From Calothrix sp. NIES-4101 (GTDB taxonomy: Bacteria; Cyanobacteriota; Cyanobacteriia; Cyanobacteriales; Nostocaceae), in assembly GCA_004296455.1 (NCBI GenBank), contig AP018280.1, positions 1,860,001 through 1,924,000 of the forward strand: a stretch of 64,000 nt of DNA. The letters run 5' to 3'. Numbering within the stretch: position 1 is the stretch's first letter; each line of letters starts with the position of its first letter. Below are positions 41,802 to 49,881 of this stretch, one piece after another. Under the pieces are notes generated by a model. The model ran no database searches. It saw nothing but the letters and a program-made list of their open reading frames with translations, and was not told where the DNA came from. Both the position numbers and the translations under genes were made by a program.

Positions 41802-42518
41802 TTATTTCGTTGCCACCCAACCACCAATCCAAATACCTGTATAAAACCTGATAATCTTTGTAAATCCAGCTTGCTGTAATAATTCAAAAACTCGTGTTTC
41901 AGGAATTGGATAAACACCTGTAGCTAATCCCTCTAATAGTTCGGAAACCTTTTCTGGAGATACACCGGCTTCTTGCCAAAAACATTTCATCATCGAAATT
42001 TTTGCTTCTAATTCATCAGTACCTTTTTCACCAAAAACATCCACCAAAATAAAAGGTGCAGATGGTTTTAGACGTTGAAAAATATTTTCTAAAAAGTCTA
42101 ATTTACTACCATCATCGGGAATAAAATGCATGACCAAAATTGCCGTGGCTGCATCATAAATTGGGTTATTAGGCAACTGATGGATATATCCGGTGAATAC
42201 TTTGATCCGCTCTGATAAATTATGTTCCTGAATTTTCTGTGATGCGATCGCTAGCATATTCACTGATGGGTCAACACCCAACATACACCAATTTTGATTA
42301 GCCTGAGCATAATTCACCAACTCCATACCAGTGCCCGCGCCGACAATTAGTAAGTTCGCTGCTTTCTCTGACATTTTATGCAAATGCGATCGCAAACAAG
42401 CTAAAGTCATTTGGTGCATTGCTTCGTAACCGGGTAGTGCCATAGGAGCTAATTTATCGTATTCGCTACCTGCAATTGGAGCATTTTTGTCGAAATCTAT
42501 AATAATTACTTCTGACAT
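41802..42518 (-). CDS. Class I SAM-dependent methyltransferase
   Basis: The protein has about 238 residues from the ATG at 42518, which has AGGAG 6 nt upstream. The SAM motif is NLLIVGAGTGMELVNYAQ, with LGVDPSVNMLAIA and a post-motif II LVMHFIPDDG. The C-terminus contains VFELLQQAGFTKIIRFY. The substrate is not visible; small-molecule targets are typical of this shape. It is convergent with katE. Confidence 0.85.
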   Translation of the reverse strand: MSEVIIIDFDKNAPIAGSEYDKLAPMALPGYEAMHQMTLACLRSHLHKMSEKAANLLIVGAGTGMELVNYAQANQNWCMLGVDPSVNMLAIASQKIQEHNLSERIKVFTGYIHQLPNNPIYDAATAILVMHFIPDDGSKLDFLENIFQRLKPSAPFILVDVFGEKGTDELEAKISMMKCFWQEAGVSPEKVSELLEGLATGVYPIPETRVFELLQQAGFTKIIRFYTGIWIGGWVATK

Positions 42519-42906
42519 TAGGGACTCCTGATTTTGATTAAAAATTATGCTAATAATTACAAAGTCTGGATATATGCTACTATCAAAGTCATGATGTAGC
42601 ACTACTGTATTATGAAACGGCGACGAAGACGGTAATAAAGTTGATATTGAAGTATTATCACTAGCTATTCGAGCATTGGCTAAGTAGATAACTGATTTAT
42701 TCCGTCACAATATAAGCAATCTACCAAACCGAGTTTTCCTAGTCCGAAGCCTCAAAGAGGGAAGCTAACGGTAGAATACATAGGTCATATTGCATTTCAA
42801 TTAGGCTGGAACCAATTAAATTGAGTTTCTAGCTGAATTTAACCATTAACCCCAAATGATTTGTGGGTAGGATGCCGGGTAGATTGAGAGAGAAGAACAT
42901 TTACAT
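42519..42906. other. Divergent spacer between methyltransferase and argS
   Basis: It should hold both promoters. No RNA gene, T-box or coding frame is supported. Confidence 0.35.
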
Positions 42907-44661
42907 ATGAATGCTACACAAGAACAACTAAAATTAAAAGTAGAACAGGCATTGGTTGCAGCCTTCGGCACAGAGCTTTCTGGAACCGATCCAATGTTAG
43001 TGCCTGCCAGTAATCCTAAATTTGGCGATTATCAAGCTAATTTATCATTACCCCTATCGAAAAAACTGGGAAAACAACCACGAATTATAGCTCAACAAAT
43101 AGTCGATAAACTTGATGTATCAGATATCTGCGAAGCACCGGAAATTGCAGGGCCAGGTTTTATTAATTTACGCTTAAAAACAGATTATATCGAAGCACAA
43201 CTCAACGCCATCCAAGCAGATACAAGATTGGGTGTAGCTAAAGTCAAGCATCCCCAACGAGAAATTGTTGATTTTTCTAGCCCCAATATTGCCAAGGAAA
43301 TGCATGTCGGGCATTTGCGCTCAACGATTATTGGTGATAGTATTGCCCGGATTTTGGAATTTATTGGGCATGATGTATTGCGGTTGAATCATGTTGGTGA
43401 TTGGGGTACACAATTTGGAATGTTAATTACATATTTGCGGGAAGTGTCCCCAGATGCATTGACAACTGCAAATGCTTTAGAAATTGCTGATTTGGTTGAG
43501 TTTTACAAACAAGCCAAAAAGCGATTTGATGAGGATGATAATTTTAAGGAAACAGCACGCCAGGAAGTTGTCAGATTACAATCGGGTGCTGAAGATACCC
43601 TTCATGCTTGGAAGTTGCTTTGCGCCCAATCCCGCGAAGAATTTCAGGAAATTTATGACTTGCTGGATGTAAAACTTTGCGAACGTGGGGAGTCCTTCTA
43701 CAATCCCCTGCTTGCAGATGTCGTTAAAGATTTAGAAAAATCTGGTTTACTCGAAGAAAGCGATCGCGCCAAAGTCGTATTTTTGGATGGTTTTACTAAT
43801 AAGGAAGGGCAACCTTTACCGTTAATTATTCAGAAATCCGATGGTGGTTATAACTACGCAACTACAGATTTAGCAGCAATTCGTTACCGTACACAACAAG
43901 ACGAAGCCAAGCGAATCATTTATCTCACCGATGCCGGACAATCTGGACATTTTGCTGGTGTGTTTCAAGTAGCACGTCGGGCAGGTTGGATACCTGATGA
44001 TGTGGAAGTAGTCCATGTAGGCTTTGGGATGGTTTTGGGTGAAGATGGCAAAAGACTAAGAACCCGTGCCGGTGATACAGTCAGATTGCGTGATTTACTG
44101 GATGAAGCCGTCATGCGATCGCGTGCTGATTTGGATATGAGATTGCAGGAATCTGGACGGGAAGAAACGGATGAATTTAAAGCGAATGTCGCCCAAGTTG
44201 TTGGCATTAGTGCGGTAAAATACGCAGATTTAAGCCAAAATCGCATGACAGACTATAAGTTTAGCTTCGACAAAATGCTGTCATTGAAGGGAAATACCGC
44301 ACCATACATGCTTTATTCCTATGCCAGAACTCAAAGTATTGCACGGGAAGGAAACATTGATTTTCAACAATTGGGTGATGTTAAAATTCAACTGCAAGCA
44401 GATAGTGAATTTACTTTAGCAAAGCATTTGTTACAACTTGACGAGGTAATTACTGAAGTTGAGCAGGAACTGTTACCACATCGTTTATGTGAGTATTTAT
44501 ATCAACTCAGTGATAAATTCAATAAGTTCTACGAAAATTGCCCCGTGTTGAAATCAGAGGCAACTGTGCGAACATCGCGGTTAGCTTTGTGTTATTTAAC
44601 AGCAAGAACTTTGAAATTGGGGTTAAATTTACTCGGAATTCAGGTTTTGGAAAGAATGTAA
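42907..44661 (+). CDS. argS: Arginyl-tRNA synthetase
   Basis: This 584-residue class I synthetase charges tRNA-Arg. Seen: an N-terminal Add-1 domain (about 1-110), the HIGH-type motif in [31 protein letters not shown], the [14 protein letters not shown] segment replacing KMSKS, and the C-terminal anticodon-binding helices. ATG start. A degenerate partial copy lies 2.4 kb downstream at 47093-47471, beyond the COG0523 operon. Confidence 0.97.
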
Positions 44662-44686
44662 ACAAGGAGTCAAAATTTAAAAAACC

Positions 44687-45400
44687 TTAATCAAATCCAT
44701 AATGGACAGTCTTAAATTCGACTTGATTACTATTAGGGTTATAAAGGGTGTAAGTGGCTTCTCCTGGCTTTCTTCCAACATTTCCCACACCAATGACTTG
44801 ACGTAGAGTTGTGACAGTATCAGTATTTGCTAACATCGGTGTATCTAGAGTTGTGACGGTAGAAGTAATAGAACCACCTTGTAACTGATAATTGAATGCT
44901 AAACCAGAACGACCACAAAATAGATTATTTGCTTGCATTCGAGAAATGCGATCGCATATTACAATTGGGTGTGTTTCTGGTGTTAGCACTTCGTCAACTC
45001 CCAAGGGAGAACCATGTATTAACAAACAATCCAACTCAAAAAAGCCGAAATTTAGACTCTGTATCCATTGCAAAGTATCTCGTGAAACTGAATTAGCCAA
45101 ACTTGTGACAGTATCACCACCGTACTTTGTTAAAAGTTCTGTCGGCTCGCTCGCAGCAGCCAAACCGTATAAAATCAAACATTGTTCTTCCCACCAGCCT
45201 TTACATACCAAAGGCTCAAATTCACCTTTTTTGGGGTTTCGCACCCGTTCTACAACTGCTTCCGATTCTGGCGTGGCACCAACAACATCACCTAAAATAT
45301 ACACAGCCTCTAGATAACGACTTTGATGCTTAATATCACTGACGACTGCATTATAAGCTGCTAAATTACCCTCAATCCCACTTAAAATAGCCCACATCAT
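44687..45400 (-). CDS. Degenerate metallophosphoesterase-fold protein (probably inactive)
   Basis: The protein has about 237 residues from the ATG at 45400; a TTG at 45454 would overlap the upstream gene by 13 nt. It aligns end to end with its neighbour at 45442-46254: ILSGIEGNLAAYNAV, YILGDVVGATPESE, LLIHGSPLGVDE, and IGVGNVGRKPGEATY. Metal ligands are lost: DxH is GIE, the GNHD block is GWWEE, and GHTH is GRSG. It is probably a non-catalytic paralogue that kept the fold, perhaps as a partner of the first protein. It is the last gene of the three-gene operon. Confidence 0.7.
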   Translation of the reverse strand: MMWAILSGIEGNLAAYNAVVSDIKHQSRYLEAVYILGDVVGATPESEAVVERVRNPKKGEFEPLVCKGWWEEQCLILYGLAAASEPTELLTKYGGDTVTSLANSVSRDTLQWIQSLNFGFFELDCLLIHGSPLGVDEVLTPETHPIVICDRISRMQANNLFCGRSGLAFNYQLQGGSITSTVTTLDTPMLANTDTVTTLRQVIGVGNVGRKPGEATYTLYNPNSNQVEFKTVHYGFD

Positions 45401-45441
45401 AGTTTGTAAATGATAATTTCTAACTCTTCCTAACTCTGAAC

Positions 45442-46254
45442 TTATCTTGTACAAACATGCGTTGGATCATCAGCACGTTCAGCAAATTCAATTCCTTGTG
45501 CCAAACGCCAAGCAAAAATGGGTGGTAAACCTTTTTCTATGATTGCAACACAGGTTTTCTGATAGTCGTATTCAACTTCCCGTAATGTGACTTCCTGGCT
45601 ATCAGTATTGTAAATGACATATGTGGCATTTGGTCGCCCGTGTCGAGGTTCGCCAACAGAACCAACATTAATAATTCGTTTTAAAGGTGCATTAAAGCTC
45701 TTATCTGCGTGTTTTCCTCCTTCTCCTTCAACAGTAATTTTTAAATTTCCAGCATTGAGATTCCGTATATAAGGGATATGTGTATGTCCACAAAATAAGA
45801 TATCTGCCTCTGCTGATATAACTCTTTCTAACGCCAAAAATGCATCGAGTCCGGGTAATAAATACTCGTGATTGCTATGGGGGCTACCATGAACAAATGC
45901 CAAATTACCTTCTTTCAAAGAATGAGGTAATCTGGCTAAGTAATCTCTATTTTCGGGATGAATTTCTTGATTAGTCCATTCATGGGCTTGGATACCTCTT
46001 TTCTCTGCTAAAAGTGACGGATAGCTACATTCACATGCATTTAATCCTTCAACTATATCTTCATCCCAACATCCTGCACAGGTAGGAATATCTAAAGCAC
46101 GAATTTGAGCGACAACAGCATTAGGATAAGGCCCATAACCAACTAAATCACCAAGACAATATATTTTTTCTACTTTATGTTTATCTATATCTAGCAATAC
46201 TGCATCCAAGGCTTCATAGTTACCATGAATGCATGAAATGACAGCTATTTTCAC
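45442..46254 (-). CDS. Metallophosphoesterase-family protein with altered ligands
   Basis: The protein has 270 residues. The calcineurin-like pattern is clear: AVISCIHGNYEALDAVL, YCLGDLVGYGPYPNAVV, FVHGSPHSNHEY, FCGHTHIPYI and INVGSVGEPRHGRPNATY. Two positions deviate: the first Asp of DxH is Cys 8, and the GNHD block reads GCWDED (61-66). It may still bind one or two metals. The GTG start overlaps the upstream stop (GTGA), so translation is coupled to the COG0523-like gene. Substrate unknown. Confidence 0.8.
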   Translation of the reverse strand: MKIAVISCIHGNYEALDAVLLDIDKHKVEKIYCLGDLVGYGPYPNAVVAQIRALDIPTCAGCWDEDIVEGLNACECSYPSLLAEKRGIQAHEWTNQEIHPENRDYLARLPHSLKEGNLAFVHGSPHSNHEYLLPGLDAFLALERVISAEADILFCGHTHIPYIRNLNAGNLKITVEGEGGKHADKSFNAPLKRIINVGSVGEPRHGRPNATYVIYNTDSQEVTLREVEYDYQKTCVAIIEKGLPPIFAWRLAQGIEFAERADDPTHVCTR

Positions 46255-47033
46255 TCTACCAAATCCTCTAATAAAATTTGTTTTACCTGTTCTTGATATT
46301 GGCTAATTGCTGCATCTGCTAAACAACAATCTTCTAAAGTTTGTCGCATCGCAGCTTCATCTAAATCTGTTCCTAAAACTTCGACTCCGCTAAATCTTTG
46401 TGGTCTTCCTTCAAGGTGACGGGGTAAGTCTAATTCTAAAAAGTCAACCGATCGCACTCCATTAACAAAATCACTATAAATTTGTCTGCCATCGGCAACA
46501 TCAAATATGCCTTTAGCCCGAATTACTTGACCATAAGCACCATTCGTTACTTCATACCAAAATTCACTCAAACTATCTTCATCTATAACTTGACCCTGTG
46601 TTGGTACACGCCACAATTTTGTGGGGATAATACTAGTATTTACAGCAGCACCTGGAACTATTTCCTCTGCCCACATATGATACTCAGAATCTTTAATTTG
46701 TGGGGAAATCACAGCAACTTTTCGATAAGATAAATTATCCAAAATTTGTGCGATCGCATTTAATTCTAAATATGAAGGCAACTCCATAAATACAGCATTT
46801 GCTGACATGATTTTCTGGATAAATTCAATTTCCTGTCCATCTTTAAAAACCTCAATCTGGGGAAAGTCCGCAATCAAACGTATCTGATCAATTGGCAGAT
46901 TACCAGTACCAGGACAGAAGTATAAGATGTTTTTTATCTCTTTGGCTGTTATGGTGCTGATTTGTTGGGAAATCCAAGTAGTTTTACCGCAACCTGCATC
47001 ACCTGCAACAACCCTAATAGTGGTTATACTCAT
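46251..47033 (-). CDS. COG0523/CobW-like P-loop protein
   Basis: The protein has 260 residues. The Walker A is GDAGCGKTTW (11-20). A C-terminal part (about 160-245) matches the CobW_C pattern (QVIRAKGIFDVADGRQIY, RFSGVEVLGTDLDEAAMRQTLEDC). The usual CxCC metal motif of COG0523 proteins is not present between the P-loop and the next strand, so this is a divergent branch. COG0523 proteins are GTPase metallochaperones, several Zur-regulated. A Fur/Zur-like palindrome ends 10 nt before the ATG. First gene of the operon. Confidence 0.75.
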   Translation of the reverse strand: MSITTIRVVAGDAGCGKTTWISQQISTITAKEIKNILYFCPGTGNLPIDQIRLIADFPQIEVFKDGQEIEFIQKIMSANAVFMELPSYLELNAIAQILDNLSYRKVAVISPQIKDSEYHMWAEEIVPGAAVNTSIIPTKLWRVPTQGQVIDEDSLSEFWYEVTNGAYGQVIRAKGIFDVADGRQIYSDFVNGVRSVDFLELDLPRHLEGRPQRFSGVEVLGTDLDEAAMRQTLEDCCLADAAISQYQEQVKQILLEDLVE

Positions 47034-47042
47034 AATTATTAA

Positions 47043-47057
47043 TAATAATCATTTTTA
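47043..47057. promoter_or_regulatory. Fur/Zur-family box-like palindrome
   Basis: TAATAATCATTTTTA is a 7-1-7 palindrome with six of seven pairs. It matches 12 of 15 positions of the cyanobacterial Zur-type consensus TGATAATNATTATCA as I remember it, and it lies 10 nt upstream of the COG0523-like start. AT-richness raises the chance of a random match. Confidence 0.4.
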
Positions 47058-47092
47058 CGATTTTTGCAAGCAGACTTAAAACAACTTATCCC

Positions 47093-47471
47093 ACTAATAC
47101 CGGACAAGCAGTTTTAAGTCTTACATCGGGTAGCTTGGATTCATGATGATGTGGAAATATTTTATCTCGGCTTTGGGATGATTTTTAGTGAAGATGCGAC
47201 AAGACTGATAACCTGTTCAGGTGATACTTTGAATTTGCGGTATTTACTGAATGAATCAATAATGCGATCGCGCGCTGATTTTGGATACGAGATTACAAGA
47301 ATCAAATATCGCCCAAGTTGTTGGTATTAGGGCGGTGAAATATGCAGATTTAAGCCAAAATCCTATGACAAATGATTTCAGTTTAGCTTCGACAAAATAC
47401 TGTCATATTTAAGGTTATATTCCCTTTTAAGGTTATATTCCCTAGAAATTAAGGTTTTGGAGAGAATGTAA
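47093..47471 (+). pseudogene. Decayed partial copy of argS
   Basis: The DNA follows argS from about 43934 to the stop, with many substitutions, deletions and frame breaks. Matching landmarks are GGCTTTGGGATG, AATGCGATCGCG, GCCCAAGTTGTTGG, GCAGATTTAAGCCAAAATC, TTTAGCTTCGACAAAAT and the end GGTTTTGGAGAGAATGTAAAC (argS: GGTTTTGGAAAGAATGTAAAC). Everything upstream of the middle of argS and most of the anticodon-binding region are missing. It cannot encode a protein. Confidence 0.88.
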
Positions 47472-47775
47472 ACCAAAATTCAGGATTCAGAATTTAGAAA
47501 ACATTACCTATTCACGTAATTCTTGTCCTGGGGAAATCACTGCGATTTTCCCCAAAACTTAACCGTAACCACTCTTGTGATGACAACTAGGATTTCTATA
47601 AAGTCTATCCCGAAGTTGAAAAATTATTGCCAAACTCCAGAAGTATTCAGTAAGTAGTAGGACAAAATTAATTACACAATGTCATTGCGTCCGTCATTTT
47701 TGTCCATGTACTTATTGCTATGCAAATTTTCTGGCTGCTTCTATATATTTGGCTTAACTTATCATACAGTTCCTT
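47472..47775. other. Spacer between argS relic and rnj
   Basis: An imperfect hairpin (GGGGAAATC ... GATTTTCCCC, 47530-47553) is the only structured element. It has no U-run in either direction. No gene is supported. Confidence 0.45.
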
Positions 47776-49581
47776 CTAAGATGCCACTTGTGCAGCAGTC
47801 CGAGTACGTCTTCTTCTCCCATCTGTAGGGACTGTAGTAGTTAAATTTGTTGATGTCGAAACCTTTACAGATGTATTTTCCTCGGGAATTTGCATCAATA
47901 AGGTTACTGTGGGCTGACAGTGTAACTCTTTCCGCAAGGAACGTGCTAAATCTCTTTCAATCAAACCCTGTAAACCGCCCCAGTCTACTTCCAGTTTATC
48001 ATTAAAGCTTTCAGTAAATTCTGTCCAACGCAAGTTGAGAATTTCTTCAATTCTTTGCTGTACCCACTTTTGCAATAAAGGTTTCTCAATGGAGGTGACT
48101 ACACCACGCAAGTGAATTTCGGGTTTTGCTAATAATTTACCTTCCCAACTGATTGCTGCTGCAACTGTAACGAGTCCTTCTTCTGCCATTTTTTGACGTT
48201 CTTGGAGAACTTTGGCACTTACCATACCAGAACCAGAAGTATCAACTAATTCCAAGCCGGATGGAACTTTTCCGATGACGCGAATCGATTGTTGTGTTAA
48301 CTCAATCACATCACCGTTATTAAGAATCACCATATTCTCTGGGGGAACACCCATACTTTGCGCTGTTTGCGAATGCTTAACTAGCATTCGATGTTCACCG
48401 TGGAAGGGAACAAAAAACTTGGGTCGAGTTAGCGCTATCATTAATTTCTGGTCTTCTTGGCAACCATGCCCAGAGACGTGAATACCTTTATCGCGCCCGT
48501 AAATCACATTTGCCCCTTGCATCATCAATTTATCAATTGTATTGACAACAGCAATTGTGTTACCTGGGATGGGATTCGCTGAAAATACGACTGTGTCTCC
48601 TTGGCGAATCTTGATGTGGGGATGTTCCTTATTGGCAATACGTGTCATCGCTGACATGGGCTCACCCTGTGAACCAGTTGTCAAAATCAGTACACTCTCA
48701 TCAGGCAGATTCCGGATGGTGTTTAGTGGTTGTAACAAGTTATCTGGACATTTGATGTAACCGAGATTGCGGGCATGGGCAATCAGGTTAAGCATCGATC
48801 GCCCAACTACACTGACAATACGGTTATGCTTTTGCGCCAATTCCAGAATCATATTGATCCGGTGGACGCTAGAGGCAAAGGTTGTAATGAATAATCGACC
48901 TGTCGCTTGACTAAAAGTCCGATCAAGGTTGGGGTATACAGAACGTTCAGACGGAGTAAAACCAGGTGTTTCCGAATTTGTCGAGTCACTCAGAAGGCAC
49001 AATACGCCTTTTTCACCATGTTCTGCTAAGCGTTGAATATCGAAGCGCTCACCATCCACTGGGGTGTGGTCAAACTTAAAATCCCCAGTGTGAATAACTA
49101 TACCAAGTGGTGTGTGAATTGCTACCGTAAAACTATCAGCAATCGAATGGGTATTGCGAATATATTCCACTAAGAAATTTTTCCCAATCCGCACCATATC
49201 GCGAGGCATAACAGAACGTAACTCAGTTCTGTCGCGAACCCCGGCTTCTTCTAGTTTTCCTTCCAACATCGACATTGCTAGGCGAGGACCATAGATGACG
49301 GGAATTTCAAATTGCTTGAGGTGAAATGCAATCCCACCAATGTGATCTTCATGTCCGTGGGTGACAATCATTCCCTTGATTTTATGGCGATTTTCCCGCA
49401 CATAATTCATATCGGGAAGGACTATGTTCACTCCATGCATCCCATCAGTCGGGAATGCTAAACCTGCATCTAATAAAATGATTTCGTCTTCATACTCAAA
49501 TACACAAGTATTTTTACCAATTTCGTGCAAACCGCCCAATGGAATGATTTTTAAGGCGGCTGAATTTTCGTTTTTAGCCAT
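47776..49581 (-). CDS. rnj: Ribonuclease J
   Basis: The protein has about 601 residues from the ATG at 49581, which has AGGAGA just upstream; a longer reading to 49662 lacks such a signal. It is a beta-CASP metallo-beta-lactamase with the zinc motif HGHEDHIGG, LLDAGLAFPTDG, HTGDFKFDHTPVDG and SGHGCQED. It acts as endo- and 5'-3' exoribonuclease in RNA turnover. The C-terminal tail is Ser/Thr/Arg-rich. It is the last gene of asd-dapA-rnj. Confidence 0.95.
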   Translation of the reverse strand: MAKNENSAALKIIPLGGLHEIGKNTCVFEYEDEIILLDAGLAFPTDGMHGVNIVLPDMNYVRENRHKIKGMIVTHGHEDHIGGIAFHLKQFEIPVIYGPRLAMSMLEGKLEEAGVRDRTELRSVMPRDMVRIGKNFLVEYIRNTHSIADSFTVAIHTPLGIVIHTGDFKFDHTPVDGERFDIQRLAEHGEKGVLCLLSDSTNSETPGFTPSERSVYPNLDRTFSQATGRLFITTFASSVHRINMILELAQKHNRIVSVVGRSMLNLIAHARNLGYIKCPDNLLQPLNTIRNLPDESVLILTTGSQGEPMSAMTRIANKEHPHIKIRQGDTVVFSANPIPGNTIAVVNTIDKLMMQGANVIYGRDKGIHVSGHGCQEDQKLMIALTRPKFFVPFHGEHRMLVKHSQTAQSMGVPPENMVILNNGDVIELTQQSIRVIGKVPSGLELVDTSGSGMVSAKVLQERQKMAEEGLVTVAAAISWEGKLLAKPEIHLRGVVTSIEKPLLQKWVQQRIEEILNLRWTEFTESFNDKLEVDWGGLQGLIERDLARSLRKELHCQPTVTLLMQIPEENTSVKVSTSTNLTTTVPTDGRRRRTRTAAQVAS

Positions 49582-49881
49582 TTTCTCCTGAGATTGTTTT
49601 ACTTTTGTTTGTTCTGATGTTTTTTCACTGAAAAAAATTTGTAAAATTTTAATCGCAGACAATAACGAGATAGTTGTTAATTTAGTCTGGATACAGTTTA
49701 GGTTAAACCTAGGATACTCAATCGATTAGGTTCGATTGGCTTGAGTTGAATTGTCATAAATATATACATCAGTCGTAACACAGGTTTTTTTGCTATTACC
49801 TGGTAGAATCTACGCACTTTTTTATATGTATCTTCTATTACGTTAACTTGTTAAAGTCGAAAAAGAACTATATTAGTTTGT
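49582..49881. promoter_or_regulatory. Spacer upstream of rnj with a palindrome
   Basis: TAGGTTAAACCTA (49699-49711) is a perfect 6-1-6 palindrome upstream of rnj. It may be a binding site or coincidence. No coding frame is supported except the unlikely N-terminal extension of rnj. Confidence 0.35.

Follow-up and report, generated by a model that had tools for sequence, protein, structure and literature searches.

A decayed, 5′-truncated argS duplicate beyond a COG0523 operon in Calothrix sp. NIES-4101

The arginine--tRNA ligase gene argS of Calothrix sp. NIES-4101 is followed by an operon headed by a COG0523-like gene and, beyond it, by a decayed partial copy of argS itself. Most likely, a rearrangement moved the operon to this place and left the copy behind as a direct, 5′-truncated duplicate. 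As a pseudogene the relic is ordinary, apart from a somewhat unusual boundary: it is the scar of a genome rearrangement and no working element. The window, that is, the whole stretch of 64,000 nucleotides that was analysed, sits in a 7.2-Mb contig of a 7.59-Mb genome, and the following features of it are used throughout:

42907-44661, plus strand: intact argS, encoding arginine--tRNA ligase of 584 aa (NCBIfam TIGR00456, 584 bits against a cut-off of 262)
44662-44689, plus strand: 28-bp argS 3′ flank, which recurs in diverged form past the relic stop (anchored alignment)
44687-45454, minus strand: third operon gene, metallophosphoesterase-like (MPE1), no Pfam or NCBIfam match, orthologue in the congener G002
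45442-46254, minus strand: second operon gene, metallophosphoesterase (MPE2; Pfam Metallophos_2, E 5.5e-21)
46251-47033, minus strand: first operon gene, COG0523-like (Pfam CobW_C, E 4e-6, above cut-off; P-loop by eye)
47042-47069, minus strand: promoter-like pair TTGCAA - 16 - TATTAT, overlapping a Zur/Fur-box-like site
47071-47087, no strand: junction, from the last base homologous to the G002 operon upstream region (47071) to the first argS-aligned base (47087)
47087-47471, plus strand: argS relic, a frameshifted and stop-containing copy of the 3′ ~42% of the gene, with deletions
47472-47506, plus strand: decayed copy of the 28-bp argS 3′ flank (second blastn segment and anchored alignment)
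47776-49662, minus strand: rnj, ribonuclease J (TIGR00649, 692 bits), first gene of a conserved neighbourhood that continues through dapA and asd

Comparison of 47034-47775 with the window by blastn matched argS twice, both times collinearly and on the same strand. The first segment pairs 47111-47406 of the relic with 43962-44284 of argS (73% with gaps, E 7e-56) and the second pairs 47431-47506 with 44621-44689 (75%, E 3e-9), a similarity well beyond chance that bears out the initial annotation in reading a relic in the same direction as the intact gene. That annotation had set the relic at 47093-47471, 2.4 kb after argS; the spacing holds (argS stop at 44661, relic start at 47087) and the end is exact, with a TAA stop codon at 47469-47471, but the start lay a few bases inside the copy, whose first base, 47087, is equivalent to 43921 in argS. 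In the alignment the relic corresponds to argS codons ~339-584. Relative to argS, it has lost 17 bp, 30 bp and ~336 bp, carries small insertions as well as stops in all three frames, and shows 61 mismatches over 317 aligned bases. No argS homology before codon ~339 was found by blastn or alignment, and a later 5′ deletion is possible. The truncated copy has neither start region nor N-terminal domain, lacks roughly two thirds of its catalytic domain, and is unlikely ever to have been functional. In a protein search of the whole genome its site was the sole other argS-like stretch (E 1.5e-14, with internal stops); argS at 42907-44661 is the only full copy found in the genome, and its open frame is intact. 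The nearest named argS genes among the matches listed belong to Nostocales, for example those of Calothrix sp. PCC 7716 (81%) and Goleter apudmare (79%).

The similarity runs on past the stop codon. In the anchored alignment, the relic flank and the argS flank resemble each other so closely that, over three scorings and two controls, 0 to 2 of 383 real flanks taken after stop codons did as well or better. When 17 argS flanks were compared, the relic 3′ flank was common only to the argS of its own genome and the 16 others scored lower, in a comparison that used the relic flank set one base off; the flanks of the two sampled congeners, G001 and G002, gave no match to it. A flank common to the relic and its own argS alone favours duplication on that lineage, unless the congeners replaced theirs. 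The 28-bp flank ends, at 44689, with the stop codon of the operon gene that converges on argS. Continuation of the relic homology into MPE1 was not significant (264/383 and 383/383 controls as good under two scorings), which counts against our preferred explanation. Furthermore, the gap between argS and MPE1 bears only weak homology to the 3′ flank of MPE1 in the congeners (controls as good in 3% of cases for G001, and in 9% and 15% for G002), so that the shared 28 bp may be either argS or operon flank.

Our results show that the relic originated within the genus. In trees built on the 317 aligned sites, the approximately unbiased (AU) test allowed it to group with its own argS (p 0.385), on the genus stem (p 0.745) or beside the two congeners (p 0.678), and rejected all nine placements with other genera (p 0.017 down to 1.6e-17). 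A horizontally acquired argS copy was discarded on these nine rejections, the SH test leaving one such tree standing, that of the relic with G021 (p 0.17). The relic is thus a local duplicate from within the genus and not foreign DNA. Since it sits equally well on the genus stem or beside the congeners, it is not firmly the sister of its own argS, and this too counts against the explanation we prefer. Relative to its own argS, the relic differs at 21/107, 13/105 and 27/105 first, second and third codon positions, respectively; the figures between the argS orthologues of G000 and G001 are 6/107, 7/105 and 26/105. Changes at all codon positions are as expected of an unconstrained copy, and, together with the stops and deletions, they agree with the decay of one copy proposed in the initial annotation; the relic looks to be decaying without clear constraint. 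Its divergence, by which that annotation had suggested dating it, is at third positions that found between species of the genus, making the relic about as old as the species split. Seven polarised changes of the own lineage were uninformative for dating, the relic having the state of its own genome at three of them, that of the congeners at three and another at one.

Between the two copies, the only open reading frames of at least 150 aa are the three minus-strand operon genes at 44687-47033, in keeping with the earlier view that the intervening block is the COG0523 operon. The G002 orthologue of MPE1 is 78% identical and also third in the same operon, and this orthologue also matches MPE2 at about 29%; the listed start of MPE1 overlaps the MPE2 end by 13 bp. 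The COG0523-like protein had no NCBIfam match, which makes two of the three operon proteins without one, and the operon is found across the order. We examined 29 relative loci, each consisting of the sequence around a COG0523 gene with up to 1.5 kb on either side: full-length MPE2 adjoins the COG0523 gene in 27 of them and MPE1 (matches of at least 35%) is present in 25, the exceptions being L051, which has neither MPE2 nor MPE1, L062, which has only a piece of MPE2, and L054 and L057, which lack MPE1. Both congeners carry the whole operon at 75-86% identity and provide its closest matches among the relatives searched; it is hence not foreign to the genus.

Insertion of a mobile element was considered and set aside: the interval between argS and the relic holds no transposase or integrase among its reading frames of at least 150 aa, only operon genes, and no tRNA that could have served as a target was found in the window. 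An RNA-family role was likewise dropped, since 44600-47900 matched no Rfam family at E 0.5 or below.

The relic is truncated at the operon boundary. Operon homology with G002 spans 44711-47071 and argS homology starts again at 47087 (codon ~339), so that the relic begins within 16 bp of the end of operon homology, just upstream of the promoter-like site. The operon retains 38 bp ahead of its first codon (47034-47071), including the promoter-like pair and the Zur/Fur-box-like dyad. Such promoter-like sites are not in excess in the region (8 versus 11.6 in shuffles). By eye, AATGATTATCATT stands directly upstream of the COG0523 gene in 8 of 18 relatives; the genome studied here has AATGATTATTATT in its place, a C-to-T change with respect to the congeners. 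By comparison with a consensus, we take the dyad to be a candidate Zur box.

The neighbourhoods of relatives, which the initial annotation had proposed to compare, show that the operon has moved. With the own genome left out, argS was present in 59/59 relatives and a COG0523 match in 30. In none of these 30 does the COG0523 gene lie beside argS on the same contig: 5 carry both genes on one contig at a great distance from each other, and the other 25 have them on separate contigs, so that a link might in principle be hidden by a contig break. Neither the operon nor rnj was present in the 16 argS neighbourhoods examined (16-19 kb each), among which the catalase gene found upstream of argS is common only to the two congeners. 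There, argS follows the same catalase gene, with no operon in that place and no relic found, and is followed by an SH3-like gene and then by sugar-ABC-transporter genes (from translations). Homology of the window with both congeners ends at the argS stop codon. Three of the genes lying downstream of argS in the congeners are found at 2.77 Mb in the genome studied here (0.87 Mb off) and others at 1.52 and 6.33 Mb; no argS remnant was found at the displaced block. The COG0523 gene has dapB as its divergent neighbour in 6 of 29 loci, those of both congeners and of four other genera (L034, L035, L038, L040, L043 and L051, from six genomes in five genera). The own dapB is located at 1.24 Mb, where neither blastn (to E 1e-3) nor tblastn (to E 0.01) detected anything of the operon.

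Two observations on the argS side may be recorded here. A methyltransferase gene at 41802-42602, between catalase and argS, matches G001 (L063, 13045-13134) in its final 30 codons alone, and no counterpart of it was found next to the argS of G002. In G002 itself, a frameshift near codon 50 breaks argS in two (L064, 12342-12509 and 10757-12364), perhaps through an assembly error.

On the other side, the order rnj-dapA-asd is kept in 11/11 relatives examined, in a neighbourhood without argS, and the order argS-operon-relic-rnj was found only in the own genome. With the relic and its flank as query, the own genome and 12 relatives (at most 40 candidates scored per genome) yielded the relic in the own genome only; other long matches were argS genes and the remaining ones covered at most 60 bases. 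Close relatives with both relic and operon in unrelated positions, the case that had been named as contradicting the initial reading, were thus not seen: the operon is elsewhere and the relic was found in none of the 12. The rnj ends of the congeners are only partly visible: rnj was not found in the G001 assembly, and in G002 the sequence runs on for only 868 bp after it. A single inversion between argS and rnj was rejected, as the genes downstream of argS in the congeners now lie at three other places in the own genome; that the nearest of them is not beside the genes lying downstream of rnj in relatives also speaks against it.

Between relic and rnj (47507-47775), nothing could be convincingly identified as left over from a second operon copy. 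The best candidate was a 23-column match between 47529-47550 and 46701-46723; read on the minus strand, it is similar to the KIAVISP stretch of the COG0523 protein. Only 2 of 200 shuffles were as good, but among 3754 real chunks 157, 371, 718 and 1143 were as good under four scorings (4% to 30%), a codon-alignment profile gave no match up to E 10, and at the protein level 247/914 and 40/457 comparisons were as good. The match was accordingly not taken as evidence of an operon remnant. An inverted repeat, GGGGAAATC...GATTTTCCCC at 47530-47553, seen by eye and not followed by a T run, overlaps it. Elsewhere in the gap, 47624-47658 resembles the sequence after argS in G001 (L063) in inverted orientation, with a 13-base exact match and weaker surroundings; 0/200 shuffles and 14/3754 real chunks were as good, which is borderline after the 16 comparisons (8 targets in 2 orientations) to which the 23-column match also belongs. 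A short interspersed repeat, AATTACACAATGTCATTGCG..., occupies 47651-47690 and recurs many times in the own and related genomes.

How the copy came to lie beyond the operon can be approached through its boundary. The coincidence of the 5′ end of the duplicate with the upstream edge of the operon would most simply be made in one step. We tentatively favour a pseudogene made by partial direct duplication, as a course of events with a little less than an even chance of being the true one. The 3′ neighbourhood of argS would have been rearranged in its own lineage, near or after the split from the two sampled congeners; the COG0523-MPE-MPE operon would have left dapB, and argS, operon and rnj would have become neighbours. 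A segment from argS codon ~339 through the operon would have been duplicated in tandem, creating in one step the junction of operon upstream region and argS codon 339; the second operon copy would have been lost and the second, truncated argS would have decayed, with selection keeping the intact gene. The homology, direct orientation, AU rejections and shared flank count for this explanation, as do the 16-bp boundary, the dapB placement in relatives, the 0/30 adjacency to argS, the empty dapB locus of the own genome and the pattern of differences across codon positions. Against it, a duplicated unit that included the operon predicts operon remnants at 47507-47775, and the lack of any convincing one there tells in the opposite direction; the relic being itself deleted in places, deletions do occur in the region.

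That absence needs no accounting for if a second operon copy never existed. A circle or linear piece carrying the operon together with an argS 3′ segment may have entered by crossover at argS, either in Campbell fashion or by homology-facilitated insertion in which the other end was joined illegitimately; homology-facilitated insertion is described in bacteria (PMC3240628). Copies of the argS 3′ end on both sides would arise in one step, which would also account for a copy cut short on its 5′ side at the edge of the operon and for a dapB locus empty of the operon. The donor, however, must already have joined the argS 3′ end to the operon, which supposes a prior junction, and the operon's closest matches are those of congeners; this entry by crossover is possible, with about one chance in three in our estimation. 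The initial annotation had offered a tandem duplication of argS or an insertion of the operon at argS sequence. What stands is duplication, within the genus, in direct orientation and with a shared 3′ flank, and the arrival of the operon, which sits beside dapB in the congeners and four other genera; a whole second argS finds no support, as the homology starts at codon ~339, and either event may have come first. If argS, whole or in its 3′ part, had been tandemly duplicated and the operon inserted between the copies later, the second then decaying, direct orientation and shared flank would follow, but the insertion must have landed no more than 16 bp from where the second copy begins, or the end of a 5′ deletion must lie there. 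A full tandem copy split afterwards fits this boundary less well than one composite event does, and we regard the two-step course as unlikely.

An old argS fragment near rnj could also have come before the rest, recombining with argS and joining the two loci during an inversion or translocation. The divergence of the relic is indeed like that between species of the genus, the genes downstream of argS and flanking the operon in congeners are scattered over the own chromosome, and a stretch between relic and rnj resembles, inverted, the post-argS sequence of G001 (the 14/3754 match, one of 16 comparisons). Yet no relic is present at the readable congener rnj end (868 bp, G002) and no argS remnant at the displaced block, and we consider such a history improbable. 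Hardly any more credible would be a role of the operon as a mobile cassette with its core promoter and Zur/Fur-like operator, moved by recombination and leaving direct partial copies of its new neighbours; if this were true, the cut would fall just upstream of the -35-like site, the argS relic would mark one such capture, and partial duplicates of adjoining genes would be expected wherever else a COG0523-MPE-MPE operon has relocated.

The argS relic changes no general view. A few hundred bases record the rebuilding of an essential gene's neighbourhood while the gene stayed intact, and a small, widespread, metal-related operon is found in a new place together with a promoter-like core. As a roughly dated neutral sequence, the relic could help to calibrate rates of decay and deletion in the genus.

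Partial-duplication pseudogenes form a general class in bacterial genomes, and the argS relic resembles them in being truncated, frameshifted, on the same strand and decaying at all codon positions. It differs in that the two argS copies are split by an intact operon sited elsewhere in relatives, and in that the truncation point is the upstream edge of this operon. No argS duplicate of comparable kind was found in searches of the open-licence literature. Partial chromosomal duplication in merodiploids, and insertion with homology at one end, are described in PMC3784515 and PMC3240628, and a partial duplication or one-end homology at the argS locus is similar; unlike there, the event at argS is old, and a donor, a competence step or a second operon copy is not demonstrable. 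Finally, PMC2770081 and PMC10957091 place cyanobacterial COG0523 genes within the Zur regulon. The operon studied here is like those genes in that its leading gene is COG0523-like and closely preceded by a Zur/Fur-box-like dyad, and unlike them in its two metallophosphoesterase-type genes and in the C-to-T change of its dyad, Zur control being putative.
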